Shown in pieces: positions 34,093-40,970 of a stretch of DNA of 64,000 nt. Where the stretch lies: the NCBI RefSeq assembly GCF_000189415.1, contig NC_015144.1, positions 439,501-503,500 on the forward strand, read 5' to 3'. Under the pieces are notes generated by a model. That model was given only the letters and a program-made list of their open reading frames with translations, did no database searches and was not told the DNA's origin. Both the position numbers and the translations under genes were made by a program. The number at the start of each line of letters is the position of its first letter. Within the stretch, counting starts at the first letter, position 1. The stretch is from Weeksella virosa DSM 16922. GTDB lineage: Bacteria > Bacteroidota > Bacteroidia > Flavobacteriales > Weeksellaceae.

Positions 34093-34770
34093 TTATAAGT
34101 TATTAACAAAATGGTAAATAGCGATTAAGATAAAACCTGCCGGAATTAAAATAGAATACCATTTTCCGAAAGCTATAATAAATGGCGTATAACGTTTGTG
34201 TCTAGCGCCAATCGACTGAAATGCTGACGCAAAACCATGTTGTAAGTGTAATGACAAAAACACAAATGCAACAAGATAGAGCACTAGCGTTACTGCGCTT
34301 GTAAACACGTGATTTAGGTGATCCATAAAGTAGTTCCCTTCTCCAAATCCTGTTTCTGAAGAGAAGTAATTTGCCTGAATGGTTGGTACCCAAAATTGCC
34401 ATAGATGAACCAATAAGAAAGCTAAAATTACACCTCCTGAAACAATCATGTTACGCGAAGCCCACGATGAATTTGCACTACCTTTGGTGTAGGCATATTT
34501 TACTGGTCTTGCTTTTTGATTCTGCATTTCTAATACAAACCCCATAACAAAATGATACACAACACCGATCAATAGTATAGGTTGCATTACAAATTGAACA
34601 ATTGGATTACTGCTCATATAAGCAGAAACCTCATTGAAACCGTTTGGGTTAATCACCGACAATGCATTAATCAGAAAGTGCTGTAATAGAAATATCAGCA
34701 AAAACAATGCTGACAACGCCATTGCAAATTTTCTTCCGATCGAAGAATTAAATAATGATTTTGATGCCAT
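34093..34770 (-). CDS. sdhC: Succinate dehydrogenase cytochrome b subunit (single diheme anchor)
   Basis: 225 residues with five membrane helices and well-spaced histidines ('[10 protein letters not shown]', '[13 protein letters not shown]', 'LLVHLWQFW', '[12 protein letters not shown]', 'AIYHFVNN'), matching the di-heme type B anchor of Bacteroidota, Bacillus and epsilonproteobacteria. It links the catalytic pair to menaquinone. First gene of sdhCAB, with a good promoter upstream. In type B enzymes one subunit replaces the SdhC/SdhD pair, so no sdhD is expected. Confidence 0.94.
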
Positions 34771-34807
34771 AAAGCAATACGTTTAATATTTTTTTAGATT
34801 TTACTCA

Positions 34808-34839
34808 CAAATTTACTAAAGTGTTACTGCTTATCACAA
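34808..34839 (-). promoter_or_regulatory. Promoter of sdhCAB
   Basis: Minus strand TTG (34839-34837), 21-bp spacer, TAAATTTG (34815-34808): a full match to the flavobacterial pattern, 37 bp before sdhC. Confidence 0.7.
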
Positions 34840-35043
34840 TGAATTTTGTCATTTCATTAACATTTAACCATAGTTTAGAATCATTCTGATTAAAGCACCT
34901 TGTAATACTTTTGCTATCTGAGTGAATTGTAAAACATTAGTTCAGAAAAAATGATTGTACATGATAAGTAATTATAATTACCACTCTATTTAATGAGAAT
35001 TATTTTTTACCAGAACATTACGATTTTATTTTATTTTTTTTAT
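34840..35043. other. Non-coding part of the sdhC-sigma factor gap
   Basis: The gene-free stretch from 34771 to 35204 (434 bp) holds the sdh promoter, this section, and the leader or small RNA of the sigma factor gene. Inside this section I see a perfect AT-rich 14-bp palindrome GTAATTATAATTAC (34968-34981) and a plus-strand TACTTTTG box (34906-34913) without a TTG partner. No ORF, tRNA or known riboswitch is apparent. Confidence 0.4.
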
Positions 35044-35070
35044 TTGTTCTAAAAAAACAGATTATATTTG
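35044..35070 (+). promoter_or_regulatory. Promoter upstream of the possible small RNA and sigma factor gene
   Basis: TTG (35044-35046), 16-bp spacer, TATATTTG (35063-35070), a perfect -7 box. Transcription would start near 35076, about 130 bp before the sigma factor start. Confidence 0.6.
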
Positions 35071-35075
35071 CCGTG

Positions 35076-35153
35076 GATTAAGCAATAGCTTTTTCATAGG
35101 TTTAAGTTGGTTAGGGAGTCCCTTTGTGTAAAAGCAAAGGGATTCGCTTTTTT
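35076..35153 (+). ncRNA. Possible small RNA or transcription attenuator
   Basis: Between a good promoter and the sigma factor gene lies an 8-bp perfect stem TCCCTTTG / CAAAGGGA (35119-35126 and 35135-35142) followed by TTCGCTTTTTTT, a typical intrinsic terminator. An overlapping AGGGA/TCCCT element (35113-35123) could compete with the stem. A transcript of about 75 nt would end here. It may be an independent RNA or a leader that controls read-through into the sigma factor gene. I do not recognise an Rfam class. Confidence 0.5.
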
Positions 35154-35204
35154 TGTAACATTTCTTCTAATCATACGACTCATAGACCAAAAGCCAAAAC
35201 AAAT

Positions 35205-35705
35205 TTGAAAAACAAAGAGAAAGTTTTTTCCGAGCTAATTACTAATAATCAGCGGATTATTCACAAAGTATGCAGCATCTATACCAACGATCAGGAATCC
35301 CATAATGACCTGTTTCAGGAGATTGTGTTGCAACTTTGGCGTTCTTTCGAGTCTTTCAAAGGCAATGCTAAGTTTTCTACTTGGATGTATCGTGTCGGGC
35401 TAAACACTGCAATAACCCATGTAAGAAAAAAAAATAAATCTGCAGTTACACTCTCTCTAGAAGAGCATCATTATCTACACTTGAGCAATGATCATGATGA
35501 AAATAAACAAGAACAACTCGACCTTCTGTACCAGAGTTTAAAATTCTTAAATGATATCGAAAGAGCATTGGTACTTTTGTATCTAGAGGATCTTAGCTAC
35601 AAAGAGATTTCTGAAACCCTTGGAATAACCGAAGGTAATGCTCGAGTGAAAATGAATCGAGTAAAAAATAAACTTAAAGAGATAATCGCTAATCTATCAA
35701 ACTAA
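35205..35705 (+). CDS. ECF-type RNA polymerase sigma factor
   Basis: 166 residues from TTG 35205 (reads as MKNKEKVFSELITNNQRIIHKVC); no ATG is available. A further upstream TTG (35124) lies inside the terminator-like hairpin and was rejected. Region 2 is 'DLFQEIVLQLWRSFESFKGNAKFSTWMYRVGLNTAITHVRK'. Region 4, a helix-turn-helix, is 'ERALVLLYLEDLSYKEISETLGITEGNARVKMNRVKNKLKE'. It redirects RNA polymerase to specific promoters. The next gene, 4 bp downstream, encodes a membrane protein that may be its anti-sigma factor. Confidence 0.88.
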   Translation: MKNKEKVFSELITNNQRIIHKVCSIYTNDQESHNDLFQEIVLQLWRSFESFKGNAKFSTWMYRVGLNTAITHVRKKNKSAVTLSLEEHHYLHLSNDHDENKQEQLDLLYQSLKFLNDIERALVLLYLEDLSYKEISETLGITEGNARVKMNRVKNKLKEIIANLSN

Positions 35706-35709
35706 GCAT

Positions 35710-36348
35710 ATGGATTTAGATGATATTAAAAAAAGCTGGCAACAGACACAAATAAAAGACACCCATTCTTCTGATCGTATTTTTTCTATCCTAAAAAAGA
35801 ATTCGACATCGGTTGCACGATTATTGTTTTTTTACACAGTTTTCGAGTTCTTATTAATTCTTATTTTTTTCATTTATTCTACCCTACTGGGTAATCATCT
35901 TTTCGATACAGAAACTTCGCAATACATCAGTAAAGAGACATTTAGATTTTTCAATATCATTACGGTAATTGCTGTTTTTATTACTTTGATATTCATGTTA
36001 TTTACATATCGTTACTACCAAAGAATTCATTACAACCAAAATACAACTTCGCTTATATCAAGCATTATAAGTTTTAGAAATGTTATCAATTATTTTGTAT
36101 TATTTTCTATCATCTTAACGACTATTGCTAGCACACCGATATATTATGAAATTGGTAAAGGAATCTACTACACTAAACACCTCAACGAAGTTCTTGTCGA
36201 TGACAACGCAAAACAATTCGGAATATTGACAGTCGGAATTTCGATTTTATTTATTCTCCTATTGGCTTCAATATATTATCTGTTTCTCTACTTTGTATTC
36301 TTAAAAAAATTAAAGAAAAACCTTATTGAATTGAAAACAGTTGATTAA
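35710..36348 (+). CDS. Membrane protein in the sigma factor operon (possible anti-sigma factor)
   Basis: 212 residues: a cytosolic N-terminus 'MDLDDIKKSWQQTQIKDTHSSDRIFSILKK' and four hydrophobic segments (about 36-58, 79-98, 117-139, 173-196). Short N-termini with 'DLDDIKKxWQ' followed by membrane helices are common right after ECF sigma genes in flavobacteria. I infer that it binds and restrains the sigma factor, though it lacks a zinc-binding anti-sigma motif. Same operon, 4-bp spacing. The ligand or stress signal is unknown. Confidence 0.7.
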   Translation: MDLDDIKKSWQQTQIKDTHSSDRIFSILKKNSTSVARLLFFYTVFEFLLILIFFIYSTLLGNHLFDTETSQYISKETFRFFNIITVIAVFITLIFMLFTYRYYQRIHYNQNTTSLISSIISFRNVINYFVLFSIILTTIASTPIYYEIGKGIYYTKHLNEVLVDDNAKQFGILTVGISILFILLLASIYYLFLYFVFLKKLKKNLIELKTVD

Positions 36349-36353
36349 CTTTG
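36326..36353 (+). promoter_or_regulatory. Promoter of the TonB-receptor cluster
   Basis: TTG (36326-36328), 17-bp spacer, TAACTTTG (36346-36353): full match. The box ends 4 bp before the GTG start of the next gene, so that mRNA may be leaderless. Confidence 0.6.
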
Positions 36354-36357
36354 CACC

Positions 36358-36678
36358 GTGAAACAATATCTAAAAACTGCAATTAGTGTTTTCCTTGTGC
36401 AATTATCAATCATGATTGCATTGGGGCAGTCTATACATATTGTTCAGCACGCTTATACTCCATCAACAGTAAGCGACCATCATGATACACAACAATTACC
36501 AAAATGTAATTTGTGTATAACTCACTTCGAACAAGTAATTACAGATAATCCTTTATCGCTACCAGAAACGCCTATAAGCTCGACTGCAAATTACAGAAGT
36601 ACCGTTCCGTATGGTGTACTAAGTTCGATTACTGCAAAACCACACAACTATCTTCGTGCACCACCTTACTGCGCATAA
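36358..36678 (+). CDS. Small DUF2946-like exported protein (member 1 of a pair)
   Basis: 106 residues from GTG 36358: a hydrophobic N-terminal helix, then 'HIVQHAYTPSTVSDHHDTQQLPKCNLCITHF' with a His-rich segment and a CxxC, and a C-terminal 'YLRAPPYCA'. The H-x2-Q-H, Cys-containing and (L/V)R(A/G)PP elements recur in the gene after the TonB receptor. The layout recalls DUF2946 proteins found near copper-related receptors, from memory. It probably acts in the periplasm and binds a metal (inference). The start is uncertain because the promoter box ends 4 bp upstream. Confidence 0.65.
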   Translation: MKQYLKTAISVFLVQLSIMIALGQSIHIVQHAYTPSTVSDHHDTQQLPKCNLCITHFEQVITDNPLSLPETPISSTANYRSTVPYGVLSSITAKPHNYLRAPPYCA

Positions 36679-36741
36679 ACCTTATTTTTTTATTCAGAGT
36701 AATTCTTCTTTTTTATATATAAAATAATTAAAGCTTTTTTC

Positions 36742-39120
36742 ATGAAACTGAAAAAAATTGCTTTTTCCGTTGCCTGCATCACGATTGGACAAATGGTAAT
36801 TGCACAATCAGAGTTTGGTGGACAAGTGGTCGATGAACACAACAATCCTGTGAAAAACATCTCAATTATCATCAACCAACATAATCTACAAACCGACGAA
36901 AATGGTTATTTTACAGCACCACACAGCACCAATCATCAATATGAAATTATTATTGATGAATATGGCTACGAATTGTATACCAAACGGATTAATAGTTCGC
37001 ACGAGTCGAATTTCAAAATCGTTCTCAAAAATCAACTATACGAATTGGAAACAGTAGAAATCAATGCGCATTTACATGATTTTTCGACGGCGAATATTAC
37101 CCGGGTTAATCAAAATTACATCACCGAAAATTATGCAGGTTCCTTGGCAAAATCCCTCGAGAATCTACCCGGCGTTTCGGCTATGGGAATCGGTTCGGGG
37201 AGCTCGAAACCAATCATCCGTGGATTAGGTTTCAACCGATTGATTGTGGCTGTGAATGGCGTAAAACAAGAAGGACAACAATGGGGTGCAGATCATGGTC
37301 TAGAAATAGACCCACTCAATGTAGAACAAGTAGAAGTTATCAAAGGTGCGGGTGCTTTGCAGTACGGGAATGAAGCAATCGCAGGTGTTATTGTACTGAA
37401 AAACAATAAAATACCTACAAAAAACACCACTCATACACAGATCAATACCTTATACCAAAGCGTTAACGATAATTATTTGGGAGGAGTTTCACATTTCAAA
37501 CGTTGGGATTATTTTTTCTACAAAGTGAAAGCTTCTTATAGTGATTATGCAGATTACAGAACAACAACCGATCATTTTAAATATTTAGATAGAATCTTCA
37601 AAATAGAAAACAATCGTATAAAAAATACAGCAGGACAAGACTTTAATACCGCTGTACAAGCTGGTTATACCGACCAACGCTTCACCTCTATTCTCAATGT
37701 GAGTAATTACTATCAAAAAGCTGGATTTTTTGCTGGCGCTCATGGGATTCCCTTGGCATCTAATTTATTGAGTGATGGGAATGACAGAAATATCGATTTT
37801 CCGTATCAAAAGGTAAATCACCTCAAAATAATTTCAGAAAACGAATACAAGTTTGGCACAAATAAGATTCTAAAACTCAAATCATCCTACCAAAATAATG
37901 TACGGCAAGAATGGAGTGTTTTCCACACACATTATCCCGATCAGCCAATTCCAGAAACCAACCCCAATCTAGAGCTCGAATTCGACTTATCAACCTACGA
38001 CACACAGTTAAGTTTTGATTGGAAACATAGCCCTAAATTCAAAACAATTATTGGCGTACAATCCCAATATCAGAACAACACAATTGATGGGTATAATTTT
38101 TTGTTACCAAAATATAAACGCACCATCTATAGTGCATATATGATAGAAGAGGTAAATGCACATCAAAACCTAAAGCTTTCTGCAGGTATCCGATACGATT
38201 TTGGTAAAATGAAAACCGAAAGTTTCTACGATCCTTATCTATATCAATTTTTGATAAAAGACGGCTATGATCACGAAACTGCCAATCAATACGCCCTACG
38301 TGGAGAAAAAATCAATCGAAATTTCCAGACGTTAAACGGAGTACTAGGAGCGAGCTATCATGCGGGGAAATCTTGGGATTTCAGCCTAAATATAGGGACC
38401 AATTATCGATTACCTACGGCTATAGAATTGGGAGCAAACGGTATTCATCATGGTTCTTTTCGTCATGAACAAGGAAATGCAGATTTGGATTCGGAACGTG
38501 GTTTTTCTGCTGATTTAAAAATCGATTATCACCCACAAACATGGAACATTAGCTTCAGTCCGTATGTTTATTATTTTTCTAATTATATTTTCTTGCAACC
38601 CTCTGGTCACTTTTCTATTCTACCGCATGCAGGACAAATCTATCAATATACCCAATCAGAAGCATTAATTGGTGGTTTCGAGGTCGCTGCAGAAAAAACA
38701 ATTGCCGATAAACTGCAAATTTCGGCTGTGTACGAATACGTATTCAACAAACAATTGGGTATCGACAAAAGCAAACGCTATCCGCTACCTTTTACACCAG
38801 CCAATAATGTGTTTGGAGAAATTAAATACCAATTAACCAATGAAGAAAACATAATAGAGAATTGGCATATTTTCTTGAATGCAAAATATACTTTTGAACA
38901 AGATAGAATTGCACAAAACGAAGAAAAGACTGGTGCTTATTTTCTTTTAGGGGCAGGAACCAAAACCAATCTTCATTTCAGAAATTTCGAGGCGATCATT
39001 GGGATACAAGCGAATAATATCCTCAATAAAAAATATTTTAACCATACTAGTTTTTATAGAACTATAGAATTACCAGAACAAGGTAGAAATATACAAGTTT
39101 CGGTTAGTATACCGTTCTAA
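36742..39120 (+). CDS. TonB-dependent outer-membrane receptor
   Basis: 792 residues. Signal peptide MKLKKIAFSVACITIGQMVIAQ, a carboxypeptidase-regulatory-like domain ('FGGQVVDEHNNPVKNISIIINQHNLQTDENGYF'), a plug ('GSLAKSLENLPGVSAMGIGSGSSKPIIRGLGFNRLIVAVNGVKQEGQQWGADHGLEI') and a 22-strand barrel ending in 'NIQVSVSIPF'. It imports a substrate using TonB energy. The plug's 'IRGLGFNRLIVAVNGV' and the barrel resemble CirA/BtuB-type receptors. The two flanking His/Cys small proteins and the His-rich lipoprotein suggest a metal, perhaps copper or zinc, as ligand. Confidence 0.92.
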   Translation: MKLKKIAFSVACITIGQMVIAQSEFGGQVVDEHNNPVKNISIIINQHNLQTDENGYFTAPHSTNHQYEIIIDEYGYELYTKRINSSHESNFKIVLKNQLYELETVEINAHLHDFSTANITRVNQNYITENYAGSLAKSLENLPGVSAMGIGSGSSKPIIRGLGFNRLIVAVNGVKQEGQQWGADHGLEIDPLNVEQVEVIKGAGALQYGNEAIAGVIVLKNNKIPTKNTTHTQINTLYQSVNDNYLGGVSHFKRWDYFFYKVKASYSDYADYRTTTDHFKYLDRIFKIENNRIKNTAGQDFNTAVQAGYTDQRFTSILNVSNYYQKAGFFAGAHGIPLASNLLSDGNDRNIDFPYQKVNHLKIISENEYKFGTNKILKLKSSYQNNVRQEWSVFHTHYPDQPIPETNPNLELEFDLSTYDTQLSFDWKHSPKFKTIIGVQSQYQNNTIDGYNFLLPKYKRTIYSAYMIEEVNAHQNLKLSAGIRYDFGKMKTESFYDPYLYQFLIKDGYDHETANQYALRGEKINRNFQTLNGVLGASYHAGKSWDFSLNIGTNYRLPTAIELGANGIHHGSFRHEQGNADLDSERGFSADLKIDYHPQTWNISFSPYVYYFSNYIFLQPSGHFSILPHAGQIYQYTQSEALIGGFEVAAEKTIADKLQISAVYEYVFNKQLGIDKSKRYPLPFTPANNVFGEIKYQLTNEENIIENWHIFLNAKYTFEQDRIAQNEEKTGAYFLLGAGTKTNLHFRNFEAIIGIQANNILNKKYFNHTSFYRTIELPEQGRNIQVSVSIPF

Positions 39121-39134
39121 TTTTTTATACCTAC

Positions 39135-39461
39135 ATGCAACAAAAAAACAAAACATATAGTTTATTGGTTTTCATCGGACTGCTCCTCTCAGTGCCAATG
39201 AATAATTATTTGCATGTACTTCAGCATCAGCAAGATCTTCATAAAGTCTTTCCTCATCAGTGTTCAGATTATATACATTTCGGGATTTATGTAGAGCCCG
39301 ATAACACCGAAACACAACCATCGCCTTGGATGATTTTTGCAGAAAAACCGTATGAGGATATGTACACATTCGGTATGGTGCTGCGCAAAGTACTGCACAA
39401 AAGTTATGTTCGTGGTCCGCCAATTTATCCTACCAATAAGAACCAACCTTACTTAATTTAA
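39135..39461 (+). CDS. Small DUF2946-like exported protein (member 2 of a pair)
   Basis: 108 residues. Hydrophobic N-terminus, then 'LHVLQHQQDLHKVFPHQCSDYIHFG', and a C-terminal region with 'YVRGPPIYPTNKN'. It shares the H-x2-Q-H, Cys-x3-IxHF and RxPP elements with the 36358-36678 product, so both likely belong to one family and bracket the TonB receptor. It lies 14 bp after the receptor stop, so it is in the same operon. Probably periplasmic or inner-membrane, possibly metal-binding. Function unknown. Confidence 0.65.
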   Translation: MQQKNKTYSLLVFIGLLLSVPMNNYLHVLQHQQDLHKVFPHQCSDYIHFGIYVEPDNTETQPSPWMIFAEKPYEDMYTFGMVLRKVLHKSYVRGPPIYPTNKNQPYLI

Positions 39462-39499
39462 TTTTTAATTTTTTAATTTTTTTTAAAAAACATACAACA

Positions 39500-39958
39500 A
39501 TGACAACCAATTTTTTAAAATACAGTTTAGTTAGTTTATTCGCAATAAGTGCATTTTCATGTTCTAATGATGATGATGCAATCGACCAAACAAAACCTTC
39601 GATTACAATCAATTCTCCTAAAAACGAGCAACATCTACATGTTGGTGAAACTATAAACGTTGATGCAGTAATCACAGATGACAGAGCTATATCTTCTTAT
39701 AAAATAGATATCCATTATGCAGGTGACGGACACACCCACGAACACCGTACTGCAGCTGAACCTTGGAATTATAAATTTGATGAAAAAGTTAGCGGAAATG
39801 TTTCTCGATATGCTGTAAAACGTTCAATCGAAATTCCTCACAACATACAAGACGGGCATTATCATTTTGGGATTATTGCAATCGATAAGTCAGGAAACGA
39901 AAGAAAAACTTATATCGAAATAGAAATTGCAGATCATGGTCATGAACATAAAAAATAA
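39500..39958 (+). CDS. DUF4625-like lipoprotein, histidine-rich
   Basis: 152 residues. Lipobox 'ISAFSC' with the lipidated Cys near residue 21, then an Ig-like beta-domain ('KPSITINSPKNEQHLHVGETINVDAVITDDRAISSYKIDIHYAGDGHTHEHRT', 'HNIQDGHYHFGIIAIDKSGNE'). The family, DUF4625 as I recall, is common in Bacteroidota. Histidines are concentrated in 'DGHTHEHR', 'DGHYHF' and the tail 'DHGHEHKK', as in metal-collecting proteins. Last gene of the TonB-receptor cluster; it probably presents metal to the receptor or buffers it (inference). Confidence 0.78.
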   Translation: MTTNFLKYSLVSLFAISAFSCSNDDDAIDQTKPSITINSPKNEQHLHVGETINVDAVITDDRAISSYKIDIHYAGDGHTHEHRTAAEPWNYKFDEKVSGNVSRYAVKRSIEIPHNIQDGHYHFGIIAIDKSGNERKTYIEIEIADHGHEHKK

Positions 39959-39971
39959 ATACCATTGATTA

Positions 39972-40003
39972 TAAAAAAGCCGGTAAATTACCGGCTTTTT
40001 TTC
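39972..40003 (+). terminator. Terminator of the TonB-receptor cluster
   Basis: Stem AAAGCCGGT / ACCGGCTTT with a 5-base loop, followed by a T-run, just after the DUF4625-like gene. Confidence 0.9.
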
Positions 40004-40100
40004 TATTACATTCTAAAGAGAAACGAGAACATAATAAATTTTTTATACTTTTATGTTATCATTAATTTAGCAAACAAATCAGAACTAAATAAATCATCTT

Positions 40101-40970
40101 ATGATTATTATCGCGGATTGTGGCTCTACAAAAACCGACTGGGTAGCATTAAATAATAACAAAAAAGAGTTATTTAGAACAACAACCATTGGTTTTAATC
40201 CTTATTATGTAGATTCTAAATTCATTACAAGTGTTTTAGCTGGCAACGAAGACTTGGTTACCAGCAAAGATCAAGTAGAGGCTGTTTTTTTTTATGGTGC
40301 AGGTGTATCTAATAAAAAAAACATACAAATTGTTTACAATGGGTTAGGTGAATTTTTCCCAGAGAACACAAAAATTACCGTAAATCACGACTTACTAGGG
40401 GCGTGTTATGCAGCCTATAAAGGGAAACCCGTAATCGTTTGTATACTAGGAACTGGTTCTAATTCTTGTTATTTTGACGGGAAAAATATACGAGAGGAAA
40501 CAAAATCCTTGGGTTTTATCCTAGGAGACGAAGGAAGTGGAAATCATCTAGGCAAAAAAATAGTTCGTGCGTATTTTAATAAGAAAATGCCCGAGCAACT
40601 GGCAAAAGCTTTTGAAAAAAAATACAATAACCTAACGGTTGAAGTGTTGAATGAAAATGTTTATAGTAATAATTTTGCCAATACTTATTTAGCTTCCTTT
40701 AGCGAGTTTGCCTACGAAAATAAACACGACCCATACATTCAACGATTAATATATGATTCGATGAAAACCTTCATAGAAGTTCAGATTTCACCGTATAAAG
40801 AAGCAAGAGAATGTGAAATGTGTTTTATTGGCTCTATTGCTCATTATTACGAAGATATTATCAGAGCAGCAGCTGCAGAAATGCATTTAACGGTTGGTCA
40901 TATTATTAGAAAACCAATCGACGATTTGGTCGAATATCATACTCAATATATACTATCAGACAATGCTTAA
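40101..40970 (+). CDS. BadF/BadG-type ATPase, N-acetylglucosamine kinase-like
   Basis: 289 residues of the ASKHA (actin/hexokinase) superfamily. Phosphate-1 motif 'ADCGSTKTDWVAL' (about 5-17), the central 'VNHDLLGACYAAYKGKPVIVCILGTGSNSCYF', and 'LGFILGDEGSGNHLGKKIV' for adenosine binding. This matches the stand-alone GlcNAc kinase-like proteins of flavobacteria, which feed recycled or imported amino sugars into metabolism; the exact sugar is inferred. Its end overlaps the formyltransferase start by 8 bp, so the two are translationally coupled. Confidence 0.88.
   Translation: MIIIADCGSTKTDWVALNNNKKELFRTTTIGFNPYYVDSKFITSVLAGNEDLVTSKDQVEAVFFYGAGVSNKKNIQIVYNGLGEFFPENTKITVNHDLLGACYAAYKGKPVIVCILGTGSNSCYFDGKNIREETKSLGFILGDEGSGNHLGKKIVRAYFNKKMPEQLAKAFEKKYNNLTVEVLNENVYSNNFANTYLASFSEFAYENKHDPYIQRLIYDSMKTFIEVQISPYKEARECEMCFIGSIAHYYEDIIRAAAAEMHLTVGHIIRKPIDDLVEYHTQYILSDNA

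Follow-up and report, generated by a model that had tools for sequence, protein, structure and literature searches.

What is known of zinc control in bacteria concerns mainly transcription factors, Zur being one example. According to PMC9426467, riboswitches are known for neither copper nor zinc. Ribosome arrest at RAPP and RGPP motifs is well established (PMC12992588, PMC10987492), and upstream open reading frames (uORFs) carrying them 5' of genes for TonB-dependent receptors (TBDRs) form a published class in Gram-negative bacteria (PMC12992588). In Bordetella, the poorly structured DUF2946 uORF CruR contains a CxxC motif followed by 45 residues and RAPP, and expression of the TBDR gene next to it is under its control. 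When copper is bound at the CxxC, the arrest is relieved and Rho stops transcription; the arrest motif and the CxxC are both required (PMC9426467). Arrest by CruR has been demonstrated in vitro. Here, we analysed a four-gene operon (uORF1, TBDR, uORF2, DUF4625 lipoprotein) of Weeksella virosa DSM 16922, located in a 64,000-nucleotide stretch of its genome (NC_015144.1, positions 439,501 to 503,500, forward strand; hereafter the window). Sequence comparison suggests, with a probability of roughly 0.57, that it is a zinc-uptake operon run by two related nascent-chain sensors, the small proteins SP1 (uORF1, 5' of the receptor gene) and SP2 (uORF2, 3' of it). The features of the locus, in window coordinates, are the following:

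36345-36353, forward strand: TAnnTTTG -7-type promoter box, TTAACTTTG, read from the sequence and ending 4 nucleotides (nt) 5' of the SP1 start codon
36358-36678, forward strand: SP1 (uORF1), 106 amino acids (aa), GTG start, with signal peptide, H-x3-H, C-x2-C, 46 residues, RAPP, 3 residues and stop
36742-39120, forward strand: TBDR, 792 aa, ZnuD-like, with carboxypeptidase-regulatory-like N-terminal domain (Pfam plug and barrel)
39135-39461, forward strand: SP2 (uORF2), 108 aa, with signal peptide, His residues, single Cys (HQC), RGPP, 12 residues and stop
39500-39958, forward strand: DUF4625 lipoprotein (Pfam PF15418), 152 aa, Cys21, His-rich, predicted Ig/PKD-like sandwich
39973-40002, forward strand: terminator-like hairpin GCCGGT-AAATT-ACCGGC followed by seven T, 3' of the lipoprotein gene, read from the sequence

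The initial annotation of this region had listed four genes, with a TBDR between two small secreted proteins and a His-rich lipoprotein at the end, and its coordinates proved exact. The intergenic gaps comprise 63 nt (SP1-TBDR), 14 nt (TBDR-SP2) and 38 nt (SP2-lipoprotein). The hairpin at 39973-40002 was not in the output of a pattern scan, whose loop rule may miss such a loop, and an Rfam search of positions 34700-40200 returned no match.

SP1 resembles CruR of the Bordetella pertussis cruR-bfrG/crtA operon, as it is a small exported CxxC protein, encoded first in its operon, with RAPP near the C-terminus and a metal-transport gene, a TBDR gene, next. Its CxxC (CNLC) is followed by 46 residues and RAPP (45 residues in CruR, 43-47 among the loci studied here), which lies 3 residues before the end (LRAPPYCA). 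In contrast to CruR, it carries an additional H-x3-H and only a sub-threshold DUF2946 score. The operon also differs from that of CruR in having a second uORF, with a single Cys and RGPP, 3' of the receptor gene, DUF4625 in place of PepSY_TM, gaps of 63 and 38 nt compared with 162 nt, and probably zinc rather than copper as the metal. SP2 ends in VRGPPIYPTNKNQPYLI, with VRGPP, such that RGPP is located 12 residues before the end; 46 residues lead to it, counting from three residues past the single Cys. The C-terminal RxPP that the initial annotation had noticed in both proteins is thus RAPP in SP1 and RGPP in SP2. In the W. virosa genome (2,272,954 bp), the codon pattern of RAPP/RGPP was found at 14 sites, compared with 39 for a backward control pattern. 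Among complete frames in 3-kb stretches around these 14 sites, SP1 and SP2 were the only motif-bearing ORFs of at least 60 aa, the other motif-bearing frames being three of 43-57 aa.

The distribution of the uORFs was determined in the best 80 of 561 homologous Bacteroidota receptor loci, whose phylogenetic spread is uneven. This set partly repeats genomes (e.g. L017/L008, L018/L007) of a family-level set of 11 loci. At family level, the receptor was found at E 1e-60 or better in only 11 of 60 genomes, that of W. virosa included. An RxPP uORF was present 5' of the receptor gene in 70 of the 80 loci (50 RAPP, 20 RGPP), with a CxxC-to-R spacing of 43-47 in 68/70. The two spacings of 57 (L087, L089) arise from an earlier CxxC, and a manual count on the sequence gave 43. 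A second uORF 3' of the receptor gene was found in 42 loci (39 RGPP, 2 KGPP, 1 RAPP), its Cys-based spacing being 43-46 in 37, 39 in four and undefined in one. At family level, uORF1 was present in 11/11 loci (window included) and uORF2 in 8/11, one of them with KGPP. None of 1579 other mechanically called ORFs of 60-200 aa in the 80 loci had R[AG]PP within the last 24 residues, and scrambled-motif controls gave 1, 1 and 0 matches on other ORFs; by these counts, chance is no explanation for the C-terminal RxPP of the uORFs. Among 395 sampled Bacteroidota genomes, 115 matched a uORF1 profile with an E of at most 0.1, the weakest of these matches being possibly chance.

The two uORFs differ in their potential ligands. 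CxxC was found in all 70 uORF1 sequences and H-x3-H ahead of it in 57, compared with uORF2, where CxxC was absent from all 42 sequences, H-x-C was present in 38 and a His pair 3-5 residues apart in every one. L014 and L015 kept RAPP and lost CxxC, and the second uORFs of L013 and L204 retain CxxC and RAPP. An aberrant form of uORF1 was observed in several of the ten loci lacking the RxPP type: L029, L033 and L038 have a CxxC uORF in the same place with an NKPPP end, and in L076 the frame is broken before an RGPP end, with receptor and DUF4625 intact, so that loss and sequence error are indistinguishable. L072 and L096 begin at a contig edge, and the scan found no uORF1 in L068, L069, L070 and L074. 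CxxC uORFs with an SRPPP end also occupy this place in L210 and L212, and the NKPPP and SRPPP ends are possibly a different arrest motif. In L189 and L191, a single-Cys uORF is positioned immediately 5' of the receptor gene.

SP1 and SP2 are related to each other, as proposed in the initial annotation: alignment of 28 uORF1 with 25 uORF2 sequences in hhalign gave a probability of 97.6 (E 3.7e-12), to which signal peptide and RxPP contribute. The features on which that proposal had partly relied fared less well, since neither the Gln of H-x2-Q-H nor the IxHF stretch is conserved among the homologues. These keep the His pair, the Cys and the Cys-to-RxPP spacing, with Cys and His being the best conserved positions after RxPP. 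The suggested similarity to DUF2946 (PF11162) was found in weak form for SP1 (16.5 bits, below the Pfam cut-off of 23.7) and in 12 of the 28 uORF1 sequences (best E 0.0054), but in none of the 25 uORF2 sequences, and a Pfam scan of SP2 matched no family. SP1 also gave a weak NCBIfam match (E 0.02, 15 bits, cut-off 130) to the Leptospira LIC10965 family, which might comprise a similar uORF.

Signal peptides and conserved His and Cys residues would also suit exported metal carriers or chaperones delivering metal to the receptor or the lipoprotein, the role assigned to the small proteins in the initial annotation. However, beyond a hydrophobic N-terminus little is kept in them except His/Cys and RAPP/RGPP at a fixed distance, and each is encoded directly 5' of a structural gene, as is CruR, so that cis-acting leader peptides are the more likely interpretation. 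RxPP, reportedly avoided in proteomes, is retained near the C-terminus at fixed distance from the Cys, and the AlphaFold model of SP1 shows a single N-terminal helix with the remainder unfolded, at low confidence (predicted local distance difference test, pLDDT, 69.8). The ratios of nonsynonymous to synonymous substitution rates (dN/dS) relative to L018 were 0.32 for SP1 and 0.17 for SP2, compared with 0.07 for both receptor and lipoprotein, which indicates that both small ORFs evolve as proteins, albeit under looser constraint than the two larger genes. A carrier function therefore appears very unlikely. The other part of that proposal, a metal-uptake unit, is well supported, with zinc the likelier metal.

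The layout of the operon is consistent with two separate points of control. Of 71 sequences (the 70 loci with an RxPP uORF1 plus the window), 55 have the TAnnTTTG box, which we take to be a Bacteroidota-type promoter element, between -60 and +30 relative to the start of uORF1, compared with a mean of 5.0 and a maximum of 13 in 200 shuffles. A distal stretch of the same width contained it in two sequences, and it was present at 2 of 42 uORF2 starts; uORF1 therefore appears to head the transcript and uORF2 to be internal. A DUF4625 gene lay at most 900 nt downstream of the receptor gene in 75/80 loci; of the five loci where it was not found, three lie close to a contig end. In 33 loci with DUF4625 (Bacteroides, Parabacteroides and others, some Flavobacteriaceae), uORF2 was lacking, and in 32 of them the receptor gene overlaps that for DUF4625 or is at most 55 nt away from it (4-nt overlap in 14). 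Where present, uORF2 separates these otherwise adjoining genes, and the lipoprotein thus seems to have its own gate.

The metal was approached through the receptor. Its profile retrieved ZnuD of Neisseria as the best structure in the PDB (E 2.2e-43; next structure 3.3e-15), although the NCBIfam ZnuD model NF038289 gave only 139.3 bits against a cut-off of 950. The zinc site of ZnuD consists of D90/H100/E340/H499 (PMC4557270). Its plug DH aligns with D184/H185 of the W. virosa receptor and its GKH with GIHH (H569); these residues were tentatively paired with H100 and H499 by counting, and E340 lies outside the alignment. In 80 receptor sequences (that of the window and 79 from the locus set, L057 being left out for want of a full frame), D184 was conserved in 79, H185 in 80 and H569 in 80. 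OprC-type copper receptors have a Cys site, which is unlikely here because 44 of the 80 receptors lack any Cys after residue 25. The Cys2His2 of uORF1 would be a usual zinc ligand set.

The same mechanism could operate with copper, in which case SP1 and SP2 would be counterparts of CruR in Bacteroidota and copper would be what the receptor imports. This reading draws on the CxxC-46-RAPP layout, which is that of CruR, a protein responding to copper, little to iron and moderately to zinc (PMC9426467). CrtA and OprC-type copper receptors are described as preceded by CruR homologues, and CutF-like proteins with Cys motifs, reported to be common in Bacteroidota, lie mostly 5' of copper genes (PMC9973294). 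It is countered by ZnuD as nearest solved receptor, the score of the NCBIfam TonB-copper model (33 bits), the receptors without Cys past residue 25, the H-x3-H alongside CxxC in 57/70 uORF1 and the reported lack of copper-related RAPP uORFs in Bacteroidota (PMC12992588). Genes of sister operons, described below, also speak against it. Overall, zinc is likelier than copper as the metal of the operon, and copper, albeit possible, is a doubtful candidate.

Genes associated with related loci were analysed in a second set of 32 stretches beyond the 80 loci, 14 of them with DUF4625. An AztD-like gene was present in eight, which are all among these 14, and a uORF1 homologue heads each of the eight; the AztD-like protein of L176 matched AztD in NCBIfam with E 1e-22 (under the cut-off) and in the PDB with E 4.9e-20. 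In one genome (G239), the order was a FolE-like gene (by eye), a CxxC uORF with SRPPP end, TBDR and DUF4625 genes, genes for a CobW-domain GTPase and a ZigA-like GTPase (565 bits, cut-off 600), and ABC (ATP-binding cassette) and FtsX genes. In L208, genes for FolE, MerC and a Fur-family protein lie alongside. The AztD-like and ZigA-like genes would encode zinc chaperones, and together with the FolE genes they favour zinc and are at odds with copper. In L177, L180, L181 and L188, uORF1 homologues head genes for an ABC ATPase, a TBDR and two permeases, with Pfam DUF3526 in L177, the only one of the four scanned. Likened by gene kind, this is the make-up of the Zur-repressed set of Caulobacter, znuK plus znuGHI, the latter comprising an ABC-2 ATPase and two ABC-2 permeases (PMC4176598), and among 14 control genomes DUF3526 was detected in Caulobacter alone. 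This likeness, too, favours zinc. The Caulobacter set differs in its transcriptional control by Zur, and such ABC genes are missing from W. virosa, as a genome search found neither ZnuA genes nor DUF3526 ABC genes there. Two ZIP genes are present in this genome. Elsewhere in the genome, beyond the window, a candidate Zur gene of the Fur family (L112) is located about 1 kb 5' of a ZIP transporter gene (genome positions 2129865-2131620).

Under the zinc reading, each small ORF would be translated before the gene behind it. When zinc is scarce, the ribosome would stall at RAPP (uORF1) or RGPP (uORF2) and the gene behind would stay expressed. When available, zinc would be bound by the H-x3-H and C-x2-C of uORF1, or by the His residues and one Cys of uORF2; these lie about 45 or more residues from the stall site and should therefore be outside the ribosome tunnel. 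Binding would pull the chain there, the arrest would be relieved and expression would fall, perhaps via Rho, whose gene is present in the W. virosa genome. In this manner, uORF1 would gate the receptor and uORF2, on the same transcript, would gate the lipoprotein separately. Gene order, the motifs with their spacing and conservation, the promoter box at uORF1 and the kinship of the two uORFs are observed. Stalling and the identity of the metal are inferred, as are the direction of regulation, for which CruR served as the model, and the level at which expression is set, which may involve Rho, an attenuator or translation. We give even odds to the full zinc switch, in which a pair of related arrest peptides that differ in their ligands, one with His2Cys2 and the other His-rich with a single Cys, gate two products separately and constitute a second layer of zinc control that is widespread in Bacteroidota and takes a form with only one uORF in Bacteroides and Parabacteroides of the gut.

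Leader peptides of this type could instead monitor protein export, as do SecM and ApdA, or sense redox state via their cysteines. Many RAPP-type arrest peptides are reported to precede sec or yidC genes, and ApdA, ApdP, the S. lividans set and the TonB-related class of PMC12992588 are likewise small and secreted, carry RAPP/RGPP close to the C-terminus and are encoded upstream of genes that include those for TBDRs. However, the genes downstream of the present uORFs serve metal uptake, Cys and His are their best conserved positions after RxPP, and uORF2 has one conserved Cys and never CxxC (0/42), which makes an export or redox sensor most improbable. CutF of Rhodobacter capsulatus (PMC9973294) resembles SP1 and SP2 as a small exported Cys uORF with a C-terminal Pro motif that controls the gene behind it. 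It differs in its CxxxC, its proline-rich end, its target (a multicopper oxidase), its response, as copper raises expression (opposite in sign to CruR), and a stem-loop over the next ribosome site, which was not seen in the window.

Several results weigh against zinc-responsive nascent-chain control. The sole uORF of this build that has been studied well responds to copper. In ten of the 80 loci, the scan found no RxPP uORF1, and two uORF2 carry KGPP. NCBIfam heme-receptor models scored 131.5 and 119.9 bits on the receptor, compared with 139.3 bits for ZnuD, all far below cut-off. The eight AztD-like loci belong to a single genus, and no AztD-like gene was found in the stretches covered by the 80-locus set. 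There was no hairpin in the SP1-receptor gap of the window and, by comparison with mononucleotide shuffles, no shared Zur/Fur-like palindrome upstream of uORF1 in the 71 stretches.

Palindromes of the 8-1-8 type occurred in 4 of these 71 upstream stretches (1.1 in shuffles) and were unlike each other; a GTTA..TAAC core was not found in them, although this core may not be the Zur box of Bacteroidota. Terminator-like hairpins of -8 kcal/mol or better were detected in the uORF1-receptor gap of 14 of 68 sequences, compared with 0.67 in shuffles. In L041, L045, L046, L047 and L050, a hairpin starting 12 nt past the uORF1 stop is followed by a T-rich stretch and is possibly an attenuator. As its own gap lacks a hairpin, no attenuator is claimed for the window.

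The lipoprotein passed the PF15418 cut-off (136.9 bits versus 27), and its His clusters, pointed out in the initial annotation, are real: among 51 sequences, H72, H78 and H80 are invariant and H122 is nearly so. Its predicted structure (pLDDT 85.1) is an Ig/PKD-like sandwich, a common fold that reveals nothing about function. A sequence search of the PDB with DUF4625 gave no useful relative, its single match having E 0.97, and no paper on DUF4625 was found in the open-licence literature.

To our knowledge, the pairing of uORFs that differ in their ligand sets, the link to DUF4625 and the case for zinc are new. No zinc-responsive arrest peptide or paired uORF arrangement was found in the open-licence literature; the accessible part of the PMC12992588 survey does not describe the pairing, DUF4625 or zinc, and the word 'zinc' is absent from the main text of PMC12992588 and PMC9973294 as far as accessible. 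If the nascent chains of these uORFs do respond to zinc, zinc control would gain a further layer in a phylum that includes common gut and environmental bacteria. The operon also suggests for DUF4625 a role in metal capture that can be tested, and with two uORFs in one operon, two ligand sets can be compared on one arrest design.

Upstream of SP1, positions 35124-36348 of the window encode an ECF (extracytoplasmic function) sigma factor and a four-helix-like membrane protein, by eye a possible anti-sigma factor. Genes of these two kinds lie 5' of uORF1 in 8 of 8 near loci, the window included (assigned by eye outside it). They were not counted as parts of the operon because uORF1 has its own promoter box. 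The pattern scan also identified a hairpin with a T tract at 35116-35145, and the true start of the sigma gene is therefore probably later than the listed TTG.

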